This document shows, in pieces, positions 9,032-33,205 of a stretch of 37,303 bases of DNA. The notes under the pieces were generated by a model. That model saw only the letters and a list, made by a program, of their open reading frames with translations. It did no database searches and was not told where the DNA came from. The translations under genes were made by a program, and so were the position numbers. The stretch spans positions 1-37,303 of the IMG/VR virus record IMGVR_UViG_3300006737_000074; one strand, written 5' to 3'. The stretch's first letter is position 1. Each line of letters opens with the position of its first letter. The stretch comes from a virus.

Positions 9032-10678
9032 CTAACCTTCACAAGAAGAACATTCAAGAATATTCCTAGAGAAAGCTTGAGCTGAACTTTGACTAAATTG
9101 ATAGTACAAAGTTTTTACACCTTCTTTCCAGGCATATAGATAGAGTTGATTTATATCTCTAGCTGATACGCTGGGATCAATCATTAAGTTAAGACTTTGA
9201 GACTGATCAATATACTTCTGTCTTTGAGCTGCTTGAAGTACAAGTTCTTTTGGAGTAATTTCAACAAAAGACTTAAATACAGCTTTGGTAGGAAAATCAA
9301 GATGTTGAACTGATCCATCCTTCTTTAAGATACTATCCCAAGTTTCCGGGGTATCTAAGCCATACTTCTGCAACTCTTCCTTTAAGAAAGGATTCTGATA
9401 AACAGTTTTACTCTTAGCTAGATCTTTTATAAAGTAATTAGACTTTATAGGTTCTATACCCATGCTTACAGCACCGTGTATAAAAGAACTAGATTTAGTT
9501 GGAGCTATTGCTAACAGAGTTGTATTAGCATAACCTTTACGAATAGACCTATAACCAAAGTTATCATGCAACCATTCAGAGGCCGCCTCCGCTTTAGTCT
9601 TTATCAGTTTAAACATATGTTCATTTAAACCTTTAGTCTGCAACGAATCAAACTCAAGTAGCTTAGACTGCAATAACGAATGATATCCGAGTACACCTAA
9701 ACCAATAGCTCTATGCTCTTTGGCAAAGTTATACGCTCTTTTCATTCCGGGTAGAGTACGAGCTTTGGTAATAAACTCATCCATCACGGCATTCAAGAAC
9801 ATAACATACGTTTCTATTGCGTCACATCTTTCGATCTCATCCCAATGCAGCAGGTTCAGTGAGCCAAGACAACATACAAAAGAATTGTAGCTATCAGTTG
9901 GCAGCTGAATCTCTGAACAAAGATTAGATGCAGTAATCTCCATACCCAATTCTTTATAAGGAGTGGTATGATTATTACTATTGTACCGGAACATGATATA
10001 CGGAAATCCAAACTCAGAACGTCTCTGGAGGATCTTGGCCCAAACTTTACGCTTGTCCTCATCACCGGCTTCCATATCTACCATCCAATCATCACCTGCG
10101 GTTATACCGTACTGTAAGTTTTGGATGGGATTACCTTCTGTTCCAATATCTAGAAACTCCATTATATCTGCATGTTCTACAGGTAACCAAACAGCACAAG
10201 CTCCACGCCTGGCTTCTGACTGCTTGCAAACATCCACAACTGTGTCATAAATTTTTGCGTAATGCACGGGGCCATCTGCATGACCTCCTGTTGATATTTC
10301 TGTACCGCGAGATCTAAGGTTGCCTAGGTAGGCGCTTGTTCCTCCACCATACTTTGACATCATACCAATCTCACGTCCTGCGTTTAATATGCTATCTAAT
10401 GAATCATCTACGTTAGATCCATAGCAGCTGATTGGCAAACCTTTCTGTTTACCAAAGTTAATCCAAACCGGAGTTGAAAGACTATAAAAGCCACGGGCCA
10501 TATAGTCTTCAAACTTCTCAGCAAACCCATCAATACCTAAATACTTCTGGGCTGTAATTGCTATGTCTTTTATTCTTTGTTCAGGTGTTTCACTGATATA
10601 TCCTCTTGAAAGAAAGAGGCGCGACTCATCATTGAGCCAATAATATTTAGGGTACTTCATATTAGAATAAATCTGCAT
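9032..10678 (-). CDS. nrdA: Ribonucleoside-diphosphate reductase, class I alpha (large) subunit
   Basis: Catalytic subunit of aerobic ribonucleotide reductase, which turns NDPs into dNDPs for phage DNA synthesis together with NrdB. The 548-residue product shows the expected parts: STPVWINFG, the redox cysteines C85 (LPISCYG) and C269 (VCCLGSLNL), the thiyl-radical loop N252-L-C254-S-E256, the paired tyrosines of radical transfer Y525-Y526 (TLYYQ), and a C-terminal CSSC (C543, C546) that would exchange electrons with thioredoxin or glutaredoxin. It is shorter than cellular NrdA and starts directly at the catalytic domain, so the N-terminal ATP-cone used for activity feedback is absent, as often in viruses. 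It overlaps the end of nrdB by 17 nt, so the two are translationally linked. Its base composition is much richer in GC than the rest of the window, suggesting recent acquisition. Confidence 0.96.
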   Translation of the reverse strand: MQIYSNMKYPKYYWLNDESRLFLSRGYISETPEQRIKDIAITAQKYLGIDGFAEKFEDYMARGFYSLSTPVWINFGKQKGLPISCYGSNVDDSLDSILNAGREIGMMSKYGGGTSAYLGNLRSRGTEISTGGHADGPVHYAKIYDTVVDVCKQSEARRGACAVWLPVEHADIMEFLDIGTEGNPIQNLQYGITAGDDWMVDMEAGDEDKRKVWAKILQRRSEFGFPYIMFRYNSNNHTTPYKELGMEITASNLCSEIQLPTDSYNSFVCCLGSLNLLHWDEIERCDAIETYVMFLNAVMDEFITKARTLPGMKRAYNFAKEHRAIGLGVLGYHSLLQSKLLEFDSLQTKGLNEHMFKLIKTKAEAASEWLHDNFGYRSIRKGYANTTLLAIAPTKSSSFIHGAVSMGIEPIKSNYFIKDLAKSKTVYQNPFLKEELQKYGLDTPETWDSILKKDGSVQHLDFPTKAVFKSFVEITPKELVLQAAQRQKYIDQSQSLNLMIDPSVSARDINQLYLYAWKEGVKTLYYQFSQSSAQAFSRNILECSSCEG

Positions 10679-11648
10679 GTGTTATACTCTTACTTTTTTT
10701 GTTATAATCAATTTGTTTTTTGTAGAAGAAATCACCTTCCTTAGTAGCAGTGCATTCTACATCAAACCAACGTGTGTTTTCTAAGAGATCTTGATCAACA
10801 TGGAACATTCTCTCCATACCAATCTTACTTAAAGAATTATTGAATCTATTTGCAATAAAGTTAGTTATTGTTTCTTTTGTTAGAAAGTCTAACTCACCTT
10901 TTTCAAAGATCCAGTTTAATATATCTACTTCTGCAGCATAAGCTTTCATGCATGCAGAGTAAACTAACTCTTCAAAATCTTTATCAAACCACTCAGGATT
11001 TTCCTTCTTAATGATATTGATTAACTCAACACCAAAGTTTCCGTGTATATCCTCTTCTTTACTGGTAGCTTCAACAACGTTTGAGATACCCTTGAAAAGG
11101 TTTTTCTCTTTATTAAAACTCATCATAATAAGAAACTGACTAAATAAACTTACATGTTCAATGAACAGTGAGAACAATAGTACAGATTTGGTATACATCT
11201 TATTATCTTTACTTCTAGTACCATCAAGATACTTATTCAGATAATCCATGCGTCCCTTTATAGCAGGAACATTAATTACATTTTCAAACTCTTTCTCTAA
11301 ACCTAAGATCCTTAGCAATCTAGCATAGGCATCTTTGTGTCTAACTTCAGACTCTGCAAATGTCATACCTACATCACCAATCTCGGCTATAGGCATTCTT
11401 TTAAAACAATCACCCCAGAATGTTTTGACCTTTACTTCTATTTGAGCAATGGCTAACATTGTGCGTTTAATTACTTCTCTTTCTTGATCAGTAATCTTTG
11501 TTTTAAAATCAGAAATATCTTCTGTGAAATTATACTCAGTATCAATCCAATAGGAATGTCTGATAGCGTCTTTGTAATCTAATAATTGTGGGTATTCATA
11601 AGGCAAAATGTTTACTCTCGGCATAAAGATATTTCCGTTCATATTCAA
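10662..11648 (-). CDS. nrdB: Ribonucleoside-diphosphate reductase, class I beta (small) subunit
   Basis: Radical-generating subunit, 328 residues. All six metal ligands can be placed: E71, E101 and H104 (SEVRH), E164 (FIEHVSLF), E199 and H202 (EEDIH). The radical tyrosine is present as Y108, four residues after H104, which argues for a tyrosyl-radical enzyme rather than the Tyr-lacking class Ic. The first ligand is Glu where E. coli NrdB has Asp84. The C-terminus (THADLF) would be the tail that docks on NrdA. It comes first in the nrdB-nrdA unit and is preceded by a hairpin and U6 tract only about 22 nt before its ATG, with no Shine-Dalgarno sequence. Confidence 0.96.
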   Translation of the reverse strand: MNMNGNIFMPRVNILPYEYPQLLDYKDAIRHSYWIDTEYNFTEDISDFKTKITDQEREVIKRTMLAIAQIEVKVKTFWGDCFKRMPIAEIGDVGMTFAESEVRHKDAYARLLRILGLEKEFENVINVPAIKGRMDYLNKYLDGTRSKDNKMYTKSVLLFSLFIEHVSLFSQFLIMMSFNKEKNLFKGISNVVEATSKEEDIHGNFGVELINIIKKENPEWFDKDFEELVYSACMKAYAAEVDILNWIFEKGELDFLTKETITNFIANRFNNSLSKIGMERMFHVDQDLLENTRWFDVECTATKEGDFFYKKQIDYNKKSKSITHADLF

Positions 11649-18808: not shown

Positions 18809-20809
18809 TCAGAATAGTTCTAGTTGGTTAATACTTACATTGAGTATTGAGTCTATTTCAGATTCAATGGCCTTGCTATAATATCCTAAATCAATATCAT
18901 AGTCTTCCCATTTAGGTTGCAGCTTTATTTCATTGAATAAAGTTTGCATCCACTTTCCGGACTCACACTGTATTTGCCTACCATCTTCTTTATTGACTTT
19001 AGTTATCTTAACGCTATTCTTACTTTGTTTAGATATATAATATCTGTTTATTTTTTGCAAATCCTCCTCACGGTATTCACCGTCTGGAGTAGATCTAGCT
19101 ACTTGTTTCCAATTACCTTTGGATTTCATACCTATACAGTAATCAAGTATATTTCTATTCTTTGCAAGATAATCTTCAGGTAAAATATCTTTAACAAAAT
19201 AATTATAAATAGCTTTTTTAACTATCAGTTTAGATTTATTCTTATGAAGTTGAAGTTCATGAAAATTAAATCTACCTTTTAACTTAACAGGAGCATACAT
19301 AAATTCTGGGCCCTTTACTTTAAATAAGTAATGAGGATTGTTTTCTTTTACGTTTCTCCATGTAGTCATGTCTACTGATTTAAAATCATTGACGGCAATA
19401 TAATTATTAACATCACCAAGAACAAGCTTTTGATATGTGTCATGTTCAAGATTTAGTTGAGTTAATTCTTCCCATTCTTTACAGACCTCCAAATAAAGAT
19501 CTTTCTTATTTTTTGGAATTCTAATCTCAACACCATCTGTATTTTGCAACAAACCAAATGCTTCAGGTATTGCATCAAGTATCATATCATATAACATCAT
19601 AAGGCTTAGTTGGCCATTAAGAGTTATACGCATACACAGTTCAGGATCATAAAAGAAACTATTCTCCTCATTGCTTAAACCAAAAGTTGAATTAAGTATA
19701 ATTTTATATACATAATTCATTGGATTAGACTTTGGGATTTTAACTCTTTCATTAAAGAACCATTCATACTGATCACAAAACTCTTCTTTTGGAAAGTGTG
19801 CGGGTGACCATTGATTGCGGATACACAAATTGGGATAGAAAGATGTAACATCTGAAGACATAATAATATGTTCATCATCTGATTTATAAACACCACTCTT
19901 TCTTGCACCGTGTATACCACCTAAAGCAAACGTTGTATGTACACCTTTATGTTCAAGTTCATATTTAAACTGACCTTTTAAGCTCATTGCATCTAGCTCC
20001 AGTGACTCAAACCTTTTTAGTGCCTGCTGAAATATAGGAGACTTAAACTTTATATACGGAAGTATCAAGTCTTTAACCTTGATTATATTCCTATAAGTCC
20101 TCATACCTTTTATTTCTTTAGGATGTACGTTTAACTTTTTACTTAAATAATAAGCAAATAGTTCTTTAGCAATACGAGGTTCTGATGCACTGAATAAATT
20201 GATATTATATTTAGATGTTAATTCTTTACGCAGTTTAATTTGAGACTTAGATGTATCAAATATAGCTTTAGTAGATTCAACATCATTAATACAATATTTT
20301 ACAATTGTATCTAGTTCTTCTTTAGTTTTGATTTCTGTCTCATGATGTATTGGCATATCTAAAAGATTTTCCCAATCCATACTAAATTGTATCCACTTAA
20401 GACTAGAACGTTTTGCCGGGTTGTCCCAGTGATGTAATTTAAATAAATCAATTTGACCTATTTGTATATGCCACGGTGCAAATACACCCCACTCTTTCCT
20501 GTTTTGTCTAGCTATTGTCTGTTGAGCAAATGCATAAATAACTTCTGCTATTGCACAACCTGACATGTTGGACCACAACTCATGATTGTTTAGTATATAC
20601 TGAGTAACTTGAGCATCAAATGCTAATCCATTATAGGATATATGCCATTGCTTCTCTTCTCTATTTTCATGTAAAAATTCTATGAATTTATCAAAATCAT
20701 TTTGCAGGTCATGCACTATAAATATCTTTTGTTCAGATGTTTTATAATGTTTAAAGACTGCTACAAAACAATTAGATAAAGTTTCATAATCCATTATCCA
20801 ATGATTCAT
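18809..20809 (-). CDS. DNA polymerase, family B, with 3'-5' exonuclease
   Basis: Replicative polymerase of 666 residues. The exonuclease domain has D7-x-E9 (MDYETLSN), N60...F64-D65 (YNGLAFDAQ) and Y172...D176 (YCINDV). GGIHGARKSG (297-306) links to the polymerase domain. Motif A is D320-VTSFYP, motif B is K369-IILNSTFG, and motif C reads Q-N423-T-D425-G where most family B enzymes have DTDS. It has its own unit: a strong hairpin terminator lies just upstream and another hairpin downstream. No terminal-protein gene was recognised, and the separate primase and DnaB-type helicase argue for RNA-primed rather than protein-primed replication. Confidence 0.93.
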   Translation of the reverse strand: MNHWIMDYETLSNCFVAVFKHYKTSEQKIFIVHDLQNDFDKFIEFLHENREEKQWHISYNGLAFDAQVTQYILNNHELWSNMSGCAIAEVIYAFAQQTIARQNRKEWGVFAPWHIQIGQIDLFKLHHWDNPAKRSSLKWIQFSMDWENLLDMPIHHETEIKTKEELDTIVKYCINDVESTKAIFDTSKSQIKLRKELTSKYNINLFSASEPRIAKELFAYYLSKKLNVHPKEIKGMRTYRNIIKVKDLILPYIKFKSPIFQQALKRFESLELDAMSLKGQFKYELEHKGVHTTFALGGIHGARKSGVYKSDDEHIIMSSDVTSFYPNLCIRNQWSPAHFPKEEFCDQYEWFFNERVKIPKSNPMNYVYKIILNSTFGLSNEENSFFYDPELCMRITLNGQLSLMMLYDMILDAIPEAFGLLQNTDGVEIRIPKNKKDLYLEVCKEWEELTQLNLEHDTYQKLVLGDVNNYIAVNDFKSVDMTTWRNVKENNPHYLFKVKGPEFMYAPVKLKGRFNFHELQLHKNKSKLIVKKAIYNYFVKDILPEDYLAKNRNILDYCIGMKSKGNWKQVARSTPDGEYREEDLQKINRYYISKQSKNSVKITKVNKEDGRQIQCESGKWMQTLFNEIKLQPKWEDYDIDLGYYSKAIESEIDSILNVSINQLELF

Positions 20810-23312: not shown

Positions 23313-24152
23313 TTAAAATATATATCTAATTGTATCAAGATTAAAATAGTAAGAGTATAACTTTTTAAACTCTTCAATTAATCTTGTTTTATGTTTTATA
23401 GGATATCTCATGATACCTTTGCTATTCTTTTTTTCATATGCTCTTCTCATAAGCTCCTGTGCTTCTGGTGAAGCTTTAGCCATTTGATTAGCATGATTAG
23501 TTAATGCAATTACTTCACATTTATTTTCACCTGCAATTGCAGACACAAAATGAAATAACTCTTGATACTCATCCTTCCAACCTGGATAGAATACAAGTGG
23601 GCTATAATTAATATGAACTTCCCAACCTAGATCTTTTAATCTCTGAATTTCTTTTATTCTTAATTGAGTTTTTTGCATCTTAGGTTCTAATATATTAGCA
23701 TATGCTTGAGGCATGAGGCTGACCCTTACTCTTGGCTTTTTGTTGAACTTTTTAACGTCAAGTTTCAACAAACTAGGATACTTAGTTGCCATTGTAGTAT
23801 TAAGCTGAGGATGATCATCATATCTTTTGAGATAATCATGTAGACCACCTGGTATATATCTTTGCATTAATACCAAATCAGTATTACAAGCTATATCTAC
23901 CATAGTATATACAGGATCCTGTTGATCAGGAATCTTGGTAAAACCTTTCTCCCATTCTACAACAGACTGAAATATCTCATCAACGTTCTCATTTACAAAC
24001 ACTCTATGGCCATTATATCTAGACATATAACAATAGGTATCTACACAACCACCAAAGCATCCGTATATTAGATTTGGAGCTATACAGTTTGCACTATTAT
24101 TATTGTCTTTAGTAACTAAAGTTTTTGTTTTTTGAACTTTAATTTGATTCAT
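23313..24152 (-). CDS. Spore-photoproduct-lyase-like radical SAM protein
   Basis: 279 residues. An N-terminal iron-sulphur segment (NLIYGCFGGCVDTYCYM; C32, C36, C41) is followed by a body that resembles the spore photoproduct lyase family: RVRVSLMPQAYANILEP, then HINYSPLVFYPGWKDEYQELF (the family's SP....W...Y..L signature). Known members open thymine dimers with a 5'-deoxyadenosyl radical, so DNA repair in sunlit habitats or another DNA/nucleotide reaction is possible. The cysteine spacing here is CX3CX4C, not the usual CX3CX2C, which leaves open whether the cluster binds SAM normally. It overlaps the lipoprotein gene by 14 nt. Confidence 0.75.
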   Translation of the reverse strand: MNQIKVQKTKTLVTKDNNNSANCIAPNLIYGCFGGCVDTYCYMSRYNGHRVFVNENVDEIFQSVVEWEKGFTKIPDQQDPVYTMVDIACNTDLVLMQRYIPGGLHDYLKRYDDHPQLNTTMATKYPSLLKLDVKKFNKKPRVRVSLMPQAYANILEPKMQKTQLRIKEIQRLKDLGWEVHINYSPLVFYPGWKDEYQELFHFVSAIAGENKCEVIALTNHANQMAKASPEAQELMRRAYEKKNSKGIMRYPIKHKTRLIEEFKKLYSYYFNLDTIRYIF

Positions 24153-24532: not shown

Positions 24533-24597
24533 TAAAAAAGGGGTGGGCAGATGCTCACAGAATACACCCGCCCATAACAATCAATTATGGCTACCCC
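24533..24597 (-). terminator. Structured terminator or leader between two units
   Basis: GGGGT (24540-24544) can pair with ACCCC (24593-24597), enclosing the hairpin GCC-C-ATAA/TTATGGC (24570-24577 with 24585-24591, one bulge, 7-nt loop) and further GC-rich sequence. On the minus strand a T6 run follows the last C. It ends the MoxR/VWA unit and lies 12 nt before the lipoprotein start. Confidence 0.55.
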
Positions 24598-25814
24598 TAA
24601 AACGGTAGATCATCTGCAACTGTATATGCAGGCTTCAGTTTTAAGTCTGATGCTTTTAAATCAAATACTGAACGATCATCAGTTAAATGCACATATTTTA
24701 ATATTGTCTTACACATTTTATTTGTGATAGCACCAATAGCAAATTCTGTAAGTGCATTTTTACTATGCAGATGTTTTACTAAGAAACTAAATCCGTGAGC
24801 GGATCTACCATCTATAGAATTAACTTTATCCATTGTTTTTCTTAAAGATTTTACATTAACATGATTCCAATTTGAACAATATCTAAGTTTATGGTCATAA
24901 AATGCAAATATTAATGCAATTTTATCATAAGACTTTTCAATATTACAATTAGCCATCATTTCTAATGCTAAGCTAGCACTATCTGCATCATCTGAATTAA
25001 TCATATCAGATATTGTTTTGCAATCTTTAGGGCTCAATACAACAGAATCTTCATTACAAATATTTAATAAATTTGAATCTAAAACTAATCTTTCTTGCTT
25101 AGACATTTCCGCTAGTACATTATACATACTTGGGTCTTTGCAATAAAAAAGAGTAAAGCCTTTTTCTAATGGGCTCCTTCCATTACTTTTATCAAAGATA
25201 TTTGTTACTTGATTTTTCCAATTCCATGTTTGATATAAAATTTCAATATATACTAATGATTCAGGATCATCATTTTCCATCTGTTCTTTTAAAGCATACA
25301 ATTCAGAAGAAACATCATCACTAATATTTTGTGATATGTGCTCAATATAATCTGTAAATTGCTTAATTGAATGAACATCTTTATATGAATAATGAAATAA
25401 GTATTCTAAGTACTTCTTAGATGTAATAACATAATCTGCTGCTAATCTATTTCTAACAATAGAAACATCATATTTATCCTTTAGATTTTGCACTTTCATT
25501 TGAGGTAAATCTAGCTTTTTAGTTCTATAAAAAGACTTGTCCTTTAATGAAGAGCTATCTATTTCTTTTACATTATCTAATAAATTGCCAAATGGGCCTT
25601 CATACCGAGGTATTTTTTTATCATGCAAAATACCTTTAAAATAACCATATTTACCACAATCAGTAATAAGTTGTGCAGATTCCCTTATTGGGTTATTATA
25701 TGAGGAATCATCTTTCTCTGATATTGTTTTTACTCCACATACATTAAGACGTGAGTTATATGTAGCATCACTTAAACTAATTGATAAGTAATATATATTT
25801 TTTAATTTATTCAT
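24597..25814 (-). CDS. MoxR/VWA-cassette protein with SSB-like C-terminal tip (405 aa)
   Basis: No family recognised. It is a diverged paralogue of the protein encoded just upstream: both have a V(S/T)I......AD(Y/F)(V/I)IT stretch (here 117-131) and a helical segment with NSxDxxxxxxA (here 268-300). The C-terminus is VADDLPF, nearly the DDIPF tip by which bacterial SSB recruits its partner proteins; this suggests docking onto host or phage SSB-binding enzymes. It overlaps its paralogue by 4 nt (ATGA) and closes the cassette. It may form part of the substrate recognised by the MoxR ATPase. Cytoplasmic; no signal or membrane segment. Confidence 0.65.
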   Translation of the reverse strand: MNKLKNIYYLSISLSDATYNSRLNVCGVKTISEKDDSSYNNPIRESAQLITDCGKYGYFKGILHDKKIPRYEGPFGNLLDNVKEIDSSSLKDKSFYRTKKLDLPQMKVQNLKDKYDVSIVRNRLAADYVITSKKYLEYLFHYSYKDVHSIKQFTDYIEHISQNISDDVSSELYALKEQMENDDPESLVYIEILYQTWNWKNQVTNIFDKSNGRSPLEKGFTLFYCKDPSMYNVLAEMSKQERLVLDSNLLNICNEDSVVLSPKDCKTISDMINSDDADSASLALEMMANCNIEKSYDKIALIFAFYDHKLRYCSNWNHVNVKSLRKTMDKVNSIDGRSAHGFSFLVKHLHSKNALTEFAIGAITNKMCKTILKYVHLTDDRSVFDLKASDLKLKPAYTVADDLPF

Positions 25815-26839
25815 TTTAAGTATTTTTTATATTCTGGTTTTACACTTACTTTAAATACATAAAGTTCTCTATTATGTATAGAGATTTCTGTACGTACTAT
25901 TCTTTCTAGATATCTAAATGATTCATTAGTTAGTTTTTCTTCTTTTTCAAGTTTCATAATCATTTCTTCTGCTGAAGAATGATATAGTTCACTTAACTCA
26001 GCTTTTTCTAACCAATACTTTACATCTTTATCTCTATTAAAATTATGAGTATAACTATATAACTTTTGAGCTAGCTCCCATAATAAATGAGGCTTTTTTG
26101 TATAGTCAATAGTTGGTAAAATTTTAGCAGCAACTGCTATATTTTCACTGTCATATGAATTAACCCAATCACCTATTTCTTTTACTAAAGTTTCAGTTAA
26201 ATCTATTTTATTAGCTGATGCATGTAAAATAGTTTCTTCATTTATAACCTCTAGTTCTCCAGTGTCCACAAGATGTGCAATATTTAAAGCTAATCCTGTG
26301 ATACCCCATTCATCCATTAGACTTATAGGACTACTGCATTGATAACTTGGTATTCCGCGATCATCCCACTTATAATCCCATATAACCGGACAATGGTGAG
26401 ATTGTATAACTCCTATTCCGGGAACATCTTCAGGTTTAAAAGCCTCATAATTCCATAATCTATACATAAGTCTGCTGGTTTTTATTCTTTCACCATTACT
26501 AAACTTTTCATAAAGATCATCATTTGTTATTATAAAATCAGCTTTTTCATAGTCATTTGTTATAGTAACTTTATGTTCTTTACAAGCGGCTTTTAATCTA
26601 TCTTGTGTAACAGAACCTCCTGACATTATAAAAGCCCTTTTGTAGTTCTGTATTTTAGTACCATCAATAGTTTCATCTGTTAGCAAGTCTTTTACTTTTT
26701 CAAAAGTAGTTTGATCTTGTGTTATAAGCACATCTTCCACTAGGCTGGAAGTAACGACCCCATAAAAGGGGTCATTATCCAAGCCAAAATGTTTCAATGC
26801 ATCATTATCATAATCTTGATAAACATTTTTATTTGCCAT
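25811..26839 (-). CDS. MoxR/VWA-cassette protein with BRCT-like segment (342 aa)
   Basis: No family certain. Residues 67-112 (YKRAFIMSGGSVTQD... followed by VTITNDYEKADFIITNDD) have the rhythm of a BRCT domain: a strand, a conserved GG, a helix, a second strand and an AD-hhhT end. Residues 222-260 contain the helical NSYDSENIAVAAK motif shared with its neighbour and with the 125-residue protein upstream of the VWA gene. It starts 1 nt after the MoxR stop and overlaps the next gene by 4 nt, so ATPase and paralogues are made together. A link to DNA-end or protein recognition is inference. Confidence 0.65.
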   Translation of the reverse strand: MANKNVYQDYDNDALKHFGLDNDPFYGVVTSSLVEDVLITQDQTTFEKVKDLLTDETIDGTKIQNYKRAFIMSGGSVTQDRLKAACKEHKVTITNDYEKADFIITNDDLYEKFSNGERIKTSRLMYRLWNYEAFKPEDVPGIGVIQSHHCPVIWDYKWDDRGIPSYQCSSPISLMDEWGITGLALNIAHLVDTGELEVINEETILHASANKIDLTETLVKEIGDWVNSYDSENIAVAAKILPTIDYTKKPHLLWELAQKLYSYTHNFNRDKDVKYWLEKAELSELYHSSAEEMIMKLEKEEKLTNESFRYLERIVRTEISIHNRELYVFKVSVKPEYKKYLK

Positions 26840-26840
26840 A

Positions 26841-28115
26841 TTATTTTACAGTCATTTTAATTATTTCCGGCTTCATCATAAGTTTATTAAACTTTTGTTT
26901 GTTGCCATTAAATATAGTTCTCACAACTAGATACTTAAGATCATTTGTGAAATATTCTTTTGTGCATAGGATTTCCAATCTATCAGTAATCTTTTGATTG
27001 ATTGTATTATCTTTTGAATACACAACTGCAAAGTTTGCAAGTCTTGTTGCAAGTGTTGATGCAATATCTGCACGATATGCGTCATCTTTACCAATGCAAC
27101 CGGTTAATTCACCTAAAATATATTGCTCATTATCATGAGTTAATAAATCTTTTGGTGTAACAAGTTTATCTAACTTATTATTAATAAACACGGTAAACAT
27201 AGATGCAAATTCATCACCAACACTACCTTCACCAATCATTTGGATATAAGGTAAGCTATCTTCAAAACTTTCAAAACTAGATATTGCATTAAAGAATGTA
27301 GTAATAGCACGAGCATTTGTTTCTTGTGTAACAAGCTCTGGATGTAACAACATAAAGTTAATACACCTTGTATCAATACCTTCTTCTTCTGCCCAACGAG
27401 CCCAACAGTTCACATCAAACTGCAAATTAGCAGTAATGTAACGTGTCTTCTGAGCTGCATCAACAGAATTAACCATATAGTCTCCATTATCCGGATTTGC
27501 GGTTAATACAATATGCCAATCTTCAGGAAGTGACCAAGAGATATACGTCTGACGATCTATCAGCTCCATTACGGCTTGAATAAATCTAACGTCTGCACGG
27601 TTCCAGTCATCTAAAAGGAGGATACCACCTTTTTTCTTTCCTGAAATCCACTCTGGCGCACAATATGACATACGGTTTTTACCTGTCATCTTGTAACCAT
27701 TGCTCAAATAATCACTAACAGCGAGCTCACTTACCCACTGCCCAATCTTCTTTGTAACAGAATTATTAGATGCTAGTTTAGCAACATCATTAGATGCTGC
27801 AGACTTTGCACCGTAGTTTACAGTGTCACCTTTAGATGGAATGTTAACTACTTGTTCTTTATACATCTGGAACTCTCTTACTGGGAAACCAACAAGATCA
27901 CCAAGTTCTTCAATCTGAGCTAAATTTAACTTAACAAAATCCATGTCATGATCTTCAGCGATCTGTTTAACGGTAGATGTTTTACCAATACCTGATTCAC
28001 CAAGAACTTCTACTGCAACAGGTAGTTTACCCTGTCCTTGTAGAAATCTATTATTATTTATAATGTGCTTCATAAAGCCATTTAAGTCATCAATGTTTAA
28101 ATTTACTTGTGCCAT
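26841..28115 (-). CDS. MoxR-type AAA+ ATPase
   Basis: 424 residues. Walker A is GESGIGKTS (39-47), Walker B ILLLDDWNRAD (165-175, the MoxR-style D-x-NRA), and sensor 1 TANPDNGDY (205-213) followed by the VNSVDAAQKTRY stretch that in MoxR proteins is LPEAxLDRF. MoxR ATPases act as chaperones, usually with a VWA-domain partner, to remodel or load cofactors into other proteins. The partner is the gene just upstream (10-nt gap). The start follows AACAATT with no Shine-Dalgarno. Base composition is a little higher in GC than in the paralogues that follow. Confidence 0.9.
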   Translation of the reverse strand: MAQVNLNIDDLNGFMKHIINNNRFLQGQGKLPVAVEVLGESGIGKTSTVKQIAEDHDMDFVKLNLAQIEELGDLVGFPVREFQMYKEQVVNIPSKGDTVNYGAKSAASNDVAKLASNNSVTKKIGQWVSELAVSDYLSNGYKMTGKNRMSYCAPEWISGKKKGGILLLDDWNRADVRFIQAVMELIDRQTYISWSLPEDWHIVLTANPDNGDYMVNSVDAAQKTRYITANLQFDVNCWARWAEEEGIDTRCINFMLLHPELVTQETNARAITTFFNAISSFESFEDSLPYIQMIGEGSVGDEFASMFTVFINNKLDKLVTPKDLLTHDNEQYILGELTGCIGKDDAYRADIASTLATRLANFAVVYSKDNTINQKITDRLEILCTKEYFTNDLKYLVVRTIFNGNKQKFNKLMMKPEIIKMTVK

Positions 28116-28125
28116 AATTGTTTTT

Positions 28126-29280
28126 TTAATTTAATTGTATTTTTTGTCCTGGTAGTTCTTCATTGACGTTGCAATGACTGCTGTGAACCCAAAGTGTATT
28201 ATTGGGACAGTTTTCCGGAGCCCAAGCTTCTCCATCTGTAAAATATATAAGAGCTGTATAACTCTTTTTCTCATTATAGTGATCTACTACGGGTTGAAAT
28301 GATGTACCACCTCTACCGTGTATCTCCCAATCCATTTTAGGATTAAAATCCTTAACAGATTTAATTCTTGTATCACATTGTACAATTGTAATTTTATGAC
28401 CAGTCTTGTGCATATGAACTAATTCAGAGAAAAACTCTTTTAATTCATCATTGCTAACTGATCCGGATGTATCAACACCCACACATATATGATTTTTGAA
28501 CTTAATCTTCAAACCGGGATTCTCAAAGTACCTCTTATTATATTTACGTCTTAGTTTTTTTGTAAAAACTATACTAGAGTTACCAACAAATCTTCTAAGA
28601 TAACCACGCCAATCAAACTTTGGAGGTTCTGTATGACGTAATCTTTCAATAAGATCAGCTAATTCACCTGGAATATTACCACATCTTTTTTCAGTTGCAT
28701 CTGCATTCTCTTTGAGTCTATGCTCAATTTGTTTTTCAATCAACTTTTTTTCTGCTTCAGGTAAATCTTCAAATTCTTCCCATGTAGCATGACATTGAGG
28801 AGTTGTACCGTCCATCTGACTAAGTAAGCCATCCAATGATGGACATGTTCCATTTTGTTTTGCTTGACTTAACAAATCATAATATACATCTGTACCTGCT
28901 CTTGTAGGAAGTTTCAATTCAGGAAATGTATCCAGAGTTAATCCACCTTCTGGCAAATAATTAGGATCTATATATTGATTGATCTCTATATCAGCAGCTA
29001 TATTAAATAACTTCTTATCATCATAACGTTCTCTTGTAGTAAGATGACCAAAAGATATATGTAATAGTTCATGTTTTAATAAACCTATTCTGTGATTCTC
29101 ACTTAAATTTGTGAAAAATTCAGGATTAACTGCTAGTTGTGCGCCAATGCCATTCTTACTAACACCAGCTGTAGGAATATCCTCTCTATAAACCTTATTA
29201 AGGCCAACCAAAAAGAGCCCATAAAAGGGCTCTGTAAATATTAATGTTTTACTTGTTTTTGATACTAAATTTGCTACCAT
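28126..29280 (-). CDS. Metallopeptidase-like plus VWA domain protein (DUF2201 type)
   Basis: 384 residues. The N-terminal half has a zinc-peptidase motif H70-E71-L-L-H74 with H79 nearby (LLKHELLHISFGH), and D/N-rich sequence after it (FNIAADIEINQ), as in the DUF2201 N-terminal domain. The C-terminal half is a von Willebrand A domain with a complete metal site: D270-T-S272-G-S274, T326 (GGTSFQP) and D349 (YFTDGE). VWA proteins of this kind pair with MoxR ATPases, encoded here next. Whether the peptidase site cuts a target or is structural is unknown. It overlaps the gene before it by 7 nt. Confidence 0.88.
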   Translation of the reverse strand: MVANLVSKTSKTLIFTEPFYGLFLVGLNKVYREDIPTAGVSKNGIGAQLAVNPEFFTNLSENHRIGLLKHELLHISFGHLTTRERYDDKKLFNIAADIEINQYIDPNYLPEGGLTLDTFPELKLPTRAGTDVYYDLLSQAKQNGTCPSLDGLLSQMDGTTPQCHATWEEFEDLPEAEKKLIEKQIEHRLKENADATEKRCGNIPGELADLIERLRHTEPPKFDWRGYLRRFVGNSSIVFTKKLRRKYNKRYFENPGLKIKFKNHICVGVDTSGSVSNDELKEFFSELVHMHKTGHKITIVQCDTRIKSVKDFNPKMDWEIHGRGGTSFQPVVDHYNEKKSYTALIYFTDGEAWAPENCPNNTLWVHSSHCNVNEELPGQKIQLN

Positions 29281-29651
29281 ATTACTTCGTATTTTCCATC
29301 TATAAAATTATATTCTTTAGTCAAATGTTGAAAATGCTCAAGAACCAATGTTTCATAAATTTTTTTTATGTTATCTATATTTGAATCTTTTGATCCTTTT
29401 ATACAATTATATATTTCTGCCATTGTTAAGTCATTAAATCCCCATTTACTCTGACCTAACATTTCGATCAATGCTGATCTACCTTGATAAGTAGTTTTTT
29501 TTAAAAATAATCTTATCAACTCTTCACAAGGATTTAAATTTTTTATTGTTTCTAATGCCATTTGTATGTCTTCATTATTGCTTGACTGAAGCATTTGGCT
29601 TAAGTTTTTAAAAACCTCTACATCTATTACTACTATTTTTTCTTTTGTCAT
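29274..29651 (-). CDS. Small helical-repeat protein ahead of the VWA gene (125 aa)
   Basis: Not recognised. Residues 17-50 (LSQMLQSSNNEDIQMALETI and on) form a HEAT-like helical hairpin that also occurs in both paralogues at the end of the cassette, with the pattern L..M/W..S.D/N.......A...I. It overlaps the VWA gene by 7 nt and follows the previous gene without a gap, so it belongs to the same unit. It may be an adaptor for the MoxR/VWA machine; this is inference from shared motif and position. Confidence 0.6.
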   Translation of the reverse strand: MTKEKIVVIDVEVFKNLSQMLQSSNNEDIQMALETIKNLNPCEELIRLFLKKTTYQGRSALIEMLGQSKWGFNDLTMAEIYNCIKGSKDSNIDNIKKIYETLVLEHFQHLTKEYNFIDGKYEVIW

Positions 29652-29999
29652 TTAATCTTCAATTTTTAAAGTTTTTCTCATCCAATCTGGTTTTTCTTTT
29701 CTGTTCATATGAACAATCCATTCTTTAGCTGAGGGAATGTAATTATTACAATCTTCTTTGACATGCTGCTCTCCAACATATCTTGTATACACGGTTTTAC
29801 CGTCTGAATTTTTAAACTTTTTTCCAAAGATTATTTCACATTCAAAAATACCTTCACTGTGATGACGATACAATCTATGCATAGAATGACCTATCCATCT
29901 TTTTGTTTCATCAAACCAATCATGTATTTTAATATAATCTTCTGGGATGCCTCCCCATTTTTTAACTGAGGATTTGGCATGCATTAAAGGATGTGCCAT
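29652..29999 (-). CDS. DUF6915-like small protein
   Basis: 115 residues matching a small conserved family I recall as DUF6915: start MAHPLMHAKSSVKKWGG, PEDYIKIHDWFDETK, then HRLYRHHSEGIFECE, IFG, NSDGK, RYVGEQHVKED and a C-terminal I.....W..H. The many conserved His, Asp and Glu residues suggest a metal site or an enzyme, but no reaction is known to me. It overlaps the gene before by 1 nt and abuts the next. Confidence 0.7.
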   Translation of the reverse strand: MAHPLMHAKSSVKKWGGIPEDYIKIHDWFDETKRWIGHSMHRLYRHHSEGIFECEIIFGKKFKNSDGKTVYTRYVGEQHVKEDCNNYIPSAKEWIVHMNRKEKPDWMRKTLKIED

Positions 30000-30379
30000 T
30001 ATTTAAAGATGCTTGAAGACCAATCATATTCATCTACTGTTCGTTGATAATAGTTACATTCTACTTTAAAATCAGTTAAATATAATTCTAAAGTACCATA
30101 ACCTCCATCATTATTAACCCAGTCACCGCCATAACTATTAACAGCATCTTCTATTTTATCATATACAAAGTCTTCTACTTTACCTACTGTTCTTTTATAT
30201 ATCTTATCTTCACTTAAATATAACTCTAGGTTTATTTCTTCACCTTCTTTAGAATAAAATAATGTTTCATATACGTCTCCTGAATCTCCTTGTCCGTCAA
30301 AGTTAGAAACAACTTTATAGACACCGTAATCTTTAAGTCTTCCTATTATTGGAAGCATTTCTATTGGTTCTTTTGCCAT
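29999..30379 (-). CDS. DUF6878-like small protein
   Basis: 126 residues. VVSNFDGQGDSGDV and GGDWVNNDGGYGTLEL match the two signatures of a small conserved family I recall as DUF6878 (YDGxGDSG...GWExNDGxxG). No function is known to me; it is acidic and probably binds a partner. The start lies 47 nt inside the RusA gene, in another frame, a deep overlap that implies co-translation. Confidence 0.6.
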   Translation of the reverse strand: MAKEPIEMLPIIGRLKDYGVYKVVSNFDGQGDSGDVYETLFYSKEGEEINLELYLSEDKIYKRTVGKVEDFVYDKIEDAVNSYGGDWVNNDGGYGTLELYLTDFKVECNYYQRTVDEYDWSSSIFK

Positions 30380-31831: not shown

Positions 31832-32500
31832 TTACAGATCAAAATCATCACCTGCTGTTGATGCAGGTTCAAATGTATCTGTTGTTGGAGATGACTTCTT
31901 TTGAAGTTCTCTCACATGCTCTGATTTATCAAACTTATAGAGTCTACTATTTTCAACATCTAAAGCTTCCATAGCAATTCCATCTTTGGAATTCCTTGGT
32001 AAAAACAAATCATAGTTTACATAACCTTCTTTGTTTTCCCATTCTCTACCACCAACACATAGATTTATATATGTATCTCCAGATAAAACTGAATCTGCAG
32101 ATTTCATAAATTCTTCAATAGTATCAGCTTCAATGCTATCTAGATCATCTCTTTTGTTAAGAGTTTCACCTAAGAAAATCATAGCTTTCAATACCTCAGT
32201 ATCTCTGCTAATTTCCCTACCGCTTGGTAAAGTAGCATCTTTGTATGGATAAGGGCTTAACCTTATTCTTCCAACTTGACCTTTATATCTAGGTCCGTTT
32301 TTGTCATTAGGATCTACTAAAAATCCTTCAAATTCTCCACCTACTGGCTCAGATTCTACATGTAATACAACATTATATGCATCTTTATCATATGGAGTTT
32401 GATCAAAAGTAATACTATTAATTTTTACTTTTTGGTTACCAACTCCAATTACCGGTCTTGCTTTGCCTGAACCTGCAGACATGTCTTTAGTACTTAACAT
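31832..32500 (-). CDS. Putative single-stranded DNA-binding protein
   Basis: 222 residues. A beta-rich N-terminal part (KVKINSITFDQTPYDKDAYN, VVLHVESEPVGGEFEGF, GQVGRIRLSPY) would make an OB fold; the C-terminus is a Ser/Thr-rich linker ending in the acidic tip AGDDFDL, the hallmark of SSB proteins. It follows a Sak4-type ATPase by 21 nt, a pairing common in phages where the recombinase and SSB work together. It begins MLSTKDMSAGS, sharing its first codons with two neighbours. I cannot confirm the OB fold from sequence alone. Confidence 0.72.
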   Translation of the reverse strand: MLSTKDMSAGSGKARPVIGVGNQKVKINSITFDQTPYDKDAYNVVLHVESEPVGGEFEGFLVDPNDKNGPRYKGQVGRIRLSPYPYKDATLPSGREISRDTEVLKAMIFLGETLNKRDDLDSIEADTIEEFMKSADSVLSGDTYINLCVGGREWENKEGYVNYDLFLPRNSKDGIAMEALDVENSRLYKFDKSEHVRELQKKSSPTTDTFEPASTAGDDFDL

Positions 32501-32521: not shown

Positions 32522-33205
32522 TTATTGTTCATATTTGATTATACAATCTTTTACATATTGTAAATCGTTCTCTATAAAGGATTCTTCAAACATATCCATG
32601 GGAGACTTACAAGTGTTATTCCCATCAGTTTGTGTTTCAAATCCATACTTTAATGTACCATCTTCTTCTTTGATAACTCTACCAAATAATACAATGGAGA
32701 ATAGACCTTCCAAAGTTAAAGCATTATCTATCATTTTACCAACAGTTTTTGCTTTTACTTTTCTACGGCCATTCATGTCTGTTGAATCTTCTGAGTGAGT
32801 CAAAAAGAAACAATATAAGTCATCCCTCAAATCTTTTGGATATTTTGCAACCTGAGCTAGGTTAGTAGCGATTGAGGTGAATTTGTCATACCCTTTTTCC
32901 TGAGCTTTATCAAAATATTCAAAAGCAGACATGTATTGCCAATCATCTATAACTATATTAGTTATATGCGGCATATTATCATTAACATGTTTTAAAGCTT
33001 TAATAATGCCTGTGGCTGATGACGCATTTGTCATATTACCTTTAGGATTATCTTTACTTATCAACGTATAATTTTTCTTCCAACCTTTAAAAGGTAAAGG
33101 TTTATTTGCAATATTGATCCAAAAAGTTTGTTTTGGATCTAAATTTCTACCTGATGTAGATTTACCAGAGCCTGACTCTGCAACGACTAATACACTTTGT
33201 GCCAT
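32522..33205 (-). CDS. Sak4-like RecA-fold ATPase
   Basis: 227 residues. Walker A AESGSGKST (9-17), Walker B TNIVIDDWQYM (82-92) and a sensor-like LYCFFLTHSE stretch give a RecA-core ATPase without extra domains, as in the Sak4/AAA_24 phage recombinases that promote strand annealing with SSB. SSB follows directly, a PD-(D/E)XK exonuclease is in the same region, and RusA would resolve the products. It could instead be a related AAA_24 NTPase with another task. Confidence 0.82.
   Translation of the reverse strand: MAQSVLVVAESGSGKSTSGRNLDPKQTFWINIANKPLPFKGWKKNYTLISKDNPKGNMTNASSATGIIKALKHVNDNMPHITNIVIDDWQYMSAFEYFDKAQEKGYDKFTSIATNLAQVAKYPKDLRDDLYCFFLTHSEDSTDMNGRRKVKAKTVGKMIDNALTLEGLFSIVLFGRVIKEEDGTLKYGFETQTDGNNTCKSPMDMFEESFIENDLQYVKDCIIKYEQ

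Follow-up and report, generated by a model that had tools for sequence, protein, structure and literature searches.

Pairs of a MoxR-type AAA+ ATPase and a VWA-domain protein are widespread in phages, including the model phage N4, and the literature that we found gives them only a proposed role: for group 2.2 jumbo phages, the same domain combination has been suggested to aid virion assembly (Iyer et al., 2021, PMC7824862). Here, we consider such a pair in the virus record IMGVR_UViG_3300006737_000074, all 37,303 nucleotides (nt) of which constitute our window. Its genes, P0003 for the MoxR-type ATPase (26841..28115) and P0004 for a metallopeptidase-VWA protein (28126..29280), lie on the minus strand, as do those of three partners: P0002 (342 amino acids, 25811..26839), which directly follows the MoxR gene, its fast-evolving paralog P0001 (405 amino acids, 24597..25814), and P0005 (125 amino acids, helical, 29274..29651). 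None of the three has a significant family match in Pfam, PHROGs, NCBIfam or PADLOC. The MoxR/metallopeptidase-VWA pair itself is a known phage system (N4 gp24/gp25; jumbo phages); the novelty lies in a dedicated third component, a set of putative adaptors and a tip of the single-stranded DNA-binding protein (SSB) type, all added to the known pair. We assign a probability of about one half to the interpretation that the locus encodes a remodeling machine for replication or repair complexes with dedicated adaptor subunits.

The pair can be called known because homologous pairs exist in N4, PBS1, S-TIM5, AD45 and Moorella phage MTATph1 and the same domains occur together in jumbo phages. By hidden Markov model (HMM), P0003 is homologous to the ATPases of these phages (gp24 in N4); it matches PHROG 1297 ('ATPase', 2e-33) and, weakly, the Pfam families AAA, AAA_3 and AAA_5. 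It contains the Walker A motif GESGIGKT and the Walker B motif LLLDDWNRA. Among its relatives, Walker A is kept in 151/151 and LLLDDWNR in 147/151, the latter placing an aspartate where the catalytic glutamate usually stands. In P0004, a zincin-type metallopeptidase domain (DUF2201_N, 7e-18; HELLHISFGH) is fused to a VWA domain (DUF2201, 7e-18) with an intact metal ion-dependent adhesion site (MIDAS). The initial annotation had noted a full metal site in this protein, and so it is throughout the family: HExxH....H is present in all 152 members and the DTSGS MIDAS in 149 of them, and the metal ligands are kept when P0004 is aligned with N4 gp25 and its counterparts in AD45, PBS1, S-TIM5 and MTATph1. 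In one collection, 461 phage records, many of them N4-like, match the VWA protein, which also hits PHROG 1314 (3e-67). PHROG 1314 bears the label 'HNH endonuclease', as do many of the matched records; we dropped this unsupported label because Pfam shows a metallopeptidase and a VWA domain. In cyanophage S-TIM5, an Hsp20 gene is found immediately upstream of the pair.

The genes belong to a run of seven open reading frames (24597-30379), all on the minus strand and, as initially annotated, abutting or overlapping. P0007 and P0006, which encode a DUF6878-like and a DUF6915-like protein, overlap by 1 nt, P0006 and P0005 abut, P0005 and the VWA gene overlap by 7 nt, gaps of 10 nt and 1 nt separate VWA from MoxR and MoxR from P0002, and P0002 and P0001 overlap by 4 nt. 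This close spacing is what one would expect of an operon with translational coupling. When viral contigs were scanned with five queries (P0001, P0002, MoxR, the primase and the MoxR of a second lineage), about 280 loci were found, whereas among bacterial genome contigs only three, from metagenome-assembled genomes (MAGs), matched; the module belongs to a family of marine bacteriophages. In group 1, the genes are ordered RusA - (DUF6878 - DUF6915) - P0005 - VWA - MoxR - P0002 - P0001. In group 2, VWA - MoxR - P0002 (the last about 37-40% identical) is followed by a 5'-3' exonuclease gene, an SPL-like gene lies upstream in many contigs, and P0001 and P0005 are mostly missing; one intermediate locus (L296) has P0001 and lacks P0005. 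Linkage was counted in MoxR-anchored loci only, so as to avoid selection by P0002 itself, and over distinct contexts with enough flanking sequence; these contexts are related by descent rather than independent events, and the query sets of the two groups partly overlap. P0002 stands directly behind MoxR in 62/62 contexts with the group-1 query and 57/57 with the group-2 query, VWA ahead of MoxR in 64/65 and 60/61, and P0001 behind P0002 in 49/49 and 25/42, respectively. P0002 is inseparable from MoxR in two lineages.

Might the paralogs nevertheless be mere conserved neighbors of an independent MoxR-VWA pair, kept in place by operon structure and by synteny within one virus order? The link between pair and partners is a genomic one rather than one of observed interaction, and the pair does occur elsewhere alone: no relative of P0001, P0002 or P0005 is detectable near the pairs of N4, PBS1, S-TIM5, AD45 and MTATph1, and the human-faecal contig MT837993 encodes MoxR and VWA without a P0002 relative. 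The sister lineage, however, has different flanks (an SPL-like gene and the 5'-3' exonuclease, as opposed to RusA and PDDEXK), yet P0002 has remained directly behind MoxR in all 57 testable contexts of the group-2 query. We therefore consider it very unlikely that the paralogs are bystanders. The initial annotation had made its case depend on the genes always occurring together, and this holds in part: more distant phages such as N4 have the pair without detectable paralogs, whereas the sister lineage keeps P0002, mostly without P0001 and P0005.

Are the partners related to each other? We compared 15 family profiles from the neighborhood in all 105 pairs, using separate P0001 and P0002 alignments and unrelated neighbor families as background, early iterated HMMs having merged both families. 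P0001-P0002 ranked first (270 colinear columns), P0001-P0005 second (49 columns), AAA_24-MoxR, a genuine P-loop relationship, third, and P0002-P0005 fourth. In hhalign, P0005 matches the C-terminal domain of P0001 at 90% over 46 columns, and the two have the motif S.ED...A.eNi.N in common. Judged by these calibrated profiles, the kinship of P0002 with P0001, of the same architecture, and with P0005, which has one helical motif in common, is genuine, in keeping with the two diverged paralogs and common helical motif of the initial annotation. AlphaFold2 models of P0002 (mean predicted local distance difference test score, pLDDT, 90) and P0001 (mean pLDDT 84) both combine a small beta-alpha-beta-beta core with a helical region at the C-terminus; the C-terminal segment of P0002 is strongly conserved (I.NR.LY.F.V.VKPEYRKY). 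Over most of its length the P0002 model resembles four uncharacterized viral proteins, among them one from a crAss-like virus and two from a single podovirus (ctz6O13), at TM-scores of just 0.3-0.4. Searches of the PDB returned nothing significant for either alignment by sequence and no match at E<0.001 by fold. Inspection by eye and domain-level Foldseek hits had pointed to BRCT, but the core approximates only the first half of that fold (Foldseek, 2le0, 45 columns, 2.0 A, probability 0.89, E 0.43), and PF00533 (BRCT) is found at E=0.05 in just 3/46 members. We have not filed the core as BRCT, because the profile test against 28 bacterial LigA BRCT domains failed (hhalign probability at most 1.5%); the secondary structure is also incomplete.

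A possible clue to the substrate comes from the end of P0001. The window protein terminates in ADDLPF, and residues 401-405 (DDLPF, 24600..24614, minus strand) have a pLDDT below 50 and are predicted to be disordered; P0001 thus has the hallmarks of an SSB-type tip, namely a flexible tail whose very last residues are [LI]PF preceded by acidic ones. In a first tail census of 21 neighbor families, an LPF tip was seen in P0001 only, and it terminates 40 of 104 distinct P0001 but none of 162 P0002 proteins. The tip recurs over deep branches even though the preceding tail does not align, it changes state eight times on the MoxR+VWA tree, and it is missing from one large clade. The SSBs of two bacterial MAGs, read directly, end in EDDIPF, DDEIPF and NDDIPF. 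The phage has an SSB-like protein of its own (31832..32500, minus strand), without a Pfam or PHROG match, whose conserved tip is GDDFDL; it is SSB-like by its acidic tail and its position beside the AAA_24, Sak4-like ATPase gene (32522..33205, minus strand; PF13479, 1.1e-6), a pairing of Sak4 and SSB genes that has been described (PMC5928155). For the HK620 SSB, the tip NDYPPF is required for Sak4 binding (PMC5928155). In group 2, where P0001 is mostly missing, the SSB-position protein itself often ends in DLPF, a tip of bacterial type that differs from the GDDFDL of group 1 (e.g., L018 and L019).

Engine and partners also differ in their rate of evolution. Over 86 complete loci, mean identity is 83% for MoxR, 73% for VWA, 48% for P0002, 30% for P0001 and 25% for P0005; where present in the same loci, DnaB, AAA_24, RusA and primase reach 85, 79, 71 and 60%. 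Median dN/dS (the ratio of nonsynonymous to synonymous rates) rises in the same order, from 0.057 (MoxR) and 0.087 (VWA) through 0.218 (P0002) and 0.283 (P0001) to 0.354 (P0005), six other neighbor genes lying at 0.05-0.12. MoxR is hence conserved on a par with DnaB, and the paralogs evolve 2-6 times faster. Substrate adaptors would be expected to produce just this pattern, in which the engine stays constant and its partners vary. Alternatively, fast-evolving adaptors could direct changing host restart, repair or defense proteins to remodeling, cleavage or inactivation, making the module a device for host takeover or counter-defense. The steep gradient from engine to adaptors, the variability of P0005 in both length and sequence, and a P0001 tip of bacterial rather than phage SSB type would all suit such a role. 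However, every median dN/dS is below 1, and positive selection is accordingly rejected; membership in a defense system is rejected as well, since the search of defense families gave weak P-loop similarity only; and a single-copy, syntenic and nearly invariant presence points to a core role more than to an accessory in an arms race. We regard host takeover as improbable.

The module sits within a replication-recombination block. RusA, a Toprim primase, the SSB-position protein, the AAA_24 ATPase and a DnaB-type helicase are encoded upstream, and the SPL-like radical SAM protein, a PDDEXK nuclease and the DNA polymerase downstream, which agrees with the placement between resolvase and repair genes in the initial annotation. 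Because P0001 ends in a tag of the kind that gathers bacterial DNA-repair proteins, and because the genes lie among those for copying DNA, the machine is likely to work on complexes that copy or repair DNA. We envision a scenario whereby the AAA+ ring and its VWA co-chaperone form the constant engine, as conserved motifs and high overall conservation show, and P0002 serves as obligate adaptor. P0001 and P0005, its lineage-specific relatives, may then select or position the substrate; for all three, these roles are suggested by the strictness of the linkage, the domains in common and the fast evolution. Likely substrates, given the location and the SSB-type tip, would be DNA replication, recombination or repair proteins. 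In many members, the DDLPF tip of P0001 might dock on the SSB-tail-binding pocket of bacterial proteins, and the pocket-bearing proteins could conceivably be delivered to, or kept at, the machine. With the pair tied to related adaptor-like proteins in a replication block, one of them bearing a docking motif, the target of the machine becomes a direct question of binding.

The published proposal for group 2.2 jumbo phages, together with a report on an archaeal two-tailed virus, offers a different answer: the pair might fold or process structural proteins during virion assembly or maturation, with the paralogs as adaptors for virion proteins. The domain architecture is the same (PMC7824862), and an intact metallopeptidase motif in 152/152 members would fit a processing role. 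Against this stands the replication-recombination setting, the portal, terminase, capsid and giant virion genes of a relative being on the opposite strand. N4 gp24/gp25 are likewise found among non-structural genes, and the SSB-like tip has no obvious use in a virion. A virion machine thus seems unlikely to us.

Several points weigh against our preferred reading of a replication and repair remodeling machine. The case for adaptors is drawn from linkage, shared domains and rates rather than from physical interaction, and the pairs of most related phages do without these partners. The similarity among the paralogs is distant (hhalign 81-90%), and relaxed constraint also fits the fast evolution, no median dN/dS exceeding 1. 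Finally, the LPF tip cannot be essential to the machine, because more than half of the distinct P0001 proteins lack it.

How might expression of the machine be tuned? Within the 5' end of the VWA gene lies a hairpin resembling an intrinsic terminator (29214..29233, minus strand), a regulatory element that overlaps coding sequence. With a GC-rich stem of 7 bp, the hairpin reads AGAGCCC-TTTTAT-GGGCTCT, encodes EPFYGLF and is followed by TTTT (-13.4 kcal/mol). The stem is kept in 76/96 distinct group-1 contexts, and in each of these 76, six of the following eight bases are T, whereas group 2 lacks a full stem. Across group-1 relatives the hairpin is conserved by means of rare codons: when 164 columns from 106 VWA genes of this group were ranked by codon bias, the codons of the stem took ranks 1 (G), 2 (P), 3 (L) and 8 (E). 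Promoter-like sites in the region were not above chance, and an Rfam scan found tRNA only. In the simplest reading, the machine genes downstream are probably subject to transcriptional attenuation by the hairpin. A more specific, and in our estimation doubtful, version of the model would combine this element with the tip: P0001 would be an AAA+ adaptor that imitates the SSB tail, capturing SSB-docking proteins and feeding them to the MoxR-VWA-metallopeptidase, with the effect that restart and repair proteins at the replication forks of the phage are remodeled or eliminated, at a level set by the embedded terminator.

The two remaining genes of the run, for the DUF6878 protein (P0007, 29999..30379, minus strand; Pfam 1.4e-8) and the DUF6915 protein (P0006, 29652..29999, minus strand; Pfam 6.4e-40), are placed between RusA and P0005 in just 35/86 complete loci, and unrelated phages of Streptomyces and Sinorhizobium have DUF6915 as well. 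Their family assignments were borne out by Pfam, those of MoxR and the peptidase-VWA protein by Pfam and PHROG matches. We reject them as machine parts and regard them as optional neighbors, so that from the machine initially proposed there remains the MoxR/VWA pair with dedicated, mutually related partners in a replication and repair block.

As to the virus itself, a 118-kb relative (L065) has PHROG matches to capsid, portal and terminase, and its terminase is about 25% identical to those of Crassvirales and of Flavobacterium and Cellulophaga (Bacteroidota) phages. On this sequence likeness we treat the window virus as a presumed deep relative of Crassvirales; the VWA and P0002 genes are absent from seven classified members of that order, in which MoxR has no convincing match either. 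The DNA polymerase (18809-20809, minus strand) ends in SINQLELF, and 64/66 relatives end in F, mostly as NQL[KTE]LF, which resembles the bacterial beta-clamp binding motif QLxLF. The SPL-like radical SAM protein (23313-24152, minus strand) has a CX3CX4C motif (YGCFGGCVDTYCYM) in group 1 and the usual CX3CX2C (YGCLYNCSYCYM) in group 2. Genes for the large and small subunits of ribonucleotide reductase lie at 9032-11648 (minus strand), and in one relative a full GroEL-like protein is encoded within a few kb of the module (L198:12858-14474).

How does the locus compare with described systems? VMAP ternary conflict systems (Kaur et al., 2020, PMC7159879) likewise combine MoxR and vWA with a rapidly diverging third protein that has a helical region. 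The present module differs in its phage replication-operon context; no VMAP, effector or peptidase-fusion domain was detected in P0001 or P0002, and no VMAP family among the members of their alignments. RavA-ViaA of E. coli, invoked in the initial annotation, also works as a MoxR AAA+ ATPase with a VWA partner, but the likeness is one of analogy: the VWA protein of the window is a DUF2201 metallopeptidase fusion, extra adaptors are present, and the Pfam and NCBIfam hits of P0003 and P0004 include no RavA- or ViaA-specific domain. With bacterial SSB (DDDIPF) and the Sak4-binding SSB of HK620 (NDYPPF), P0001 has in common an acidic-LPF tip on a disordered tail (PMC5872125, PMC5928155); here, however, the tip is carried by an adaptor-like protein, whereas the SSB-like protein of the phage ends in GDDFDL. 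Also close are N4 gp24-gp25 and the pair of group 2.2 jumbo phages, in which a MoxR AAA+ ATPase is likewise adjacent to a DUF2201-type metallopeptidase-VWA protein with conserved metal ligands, and from which the window differs by the partners P0002, P0001 and P0005, the Asp-Asp of Walker B and the location in a replication block.

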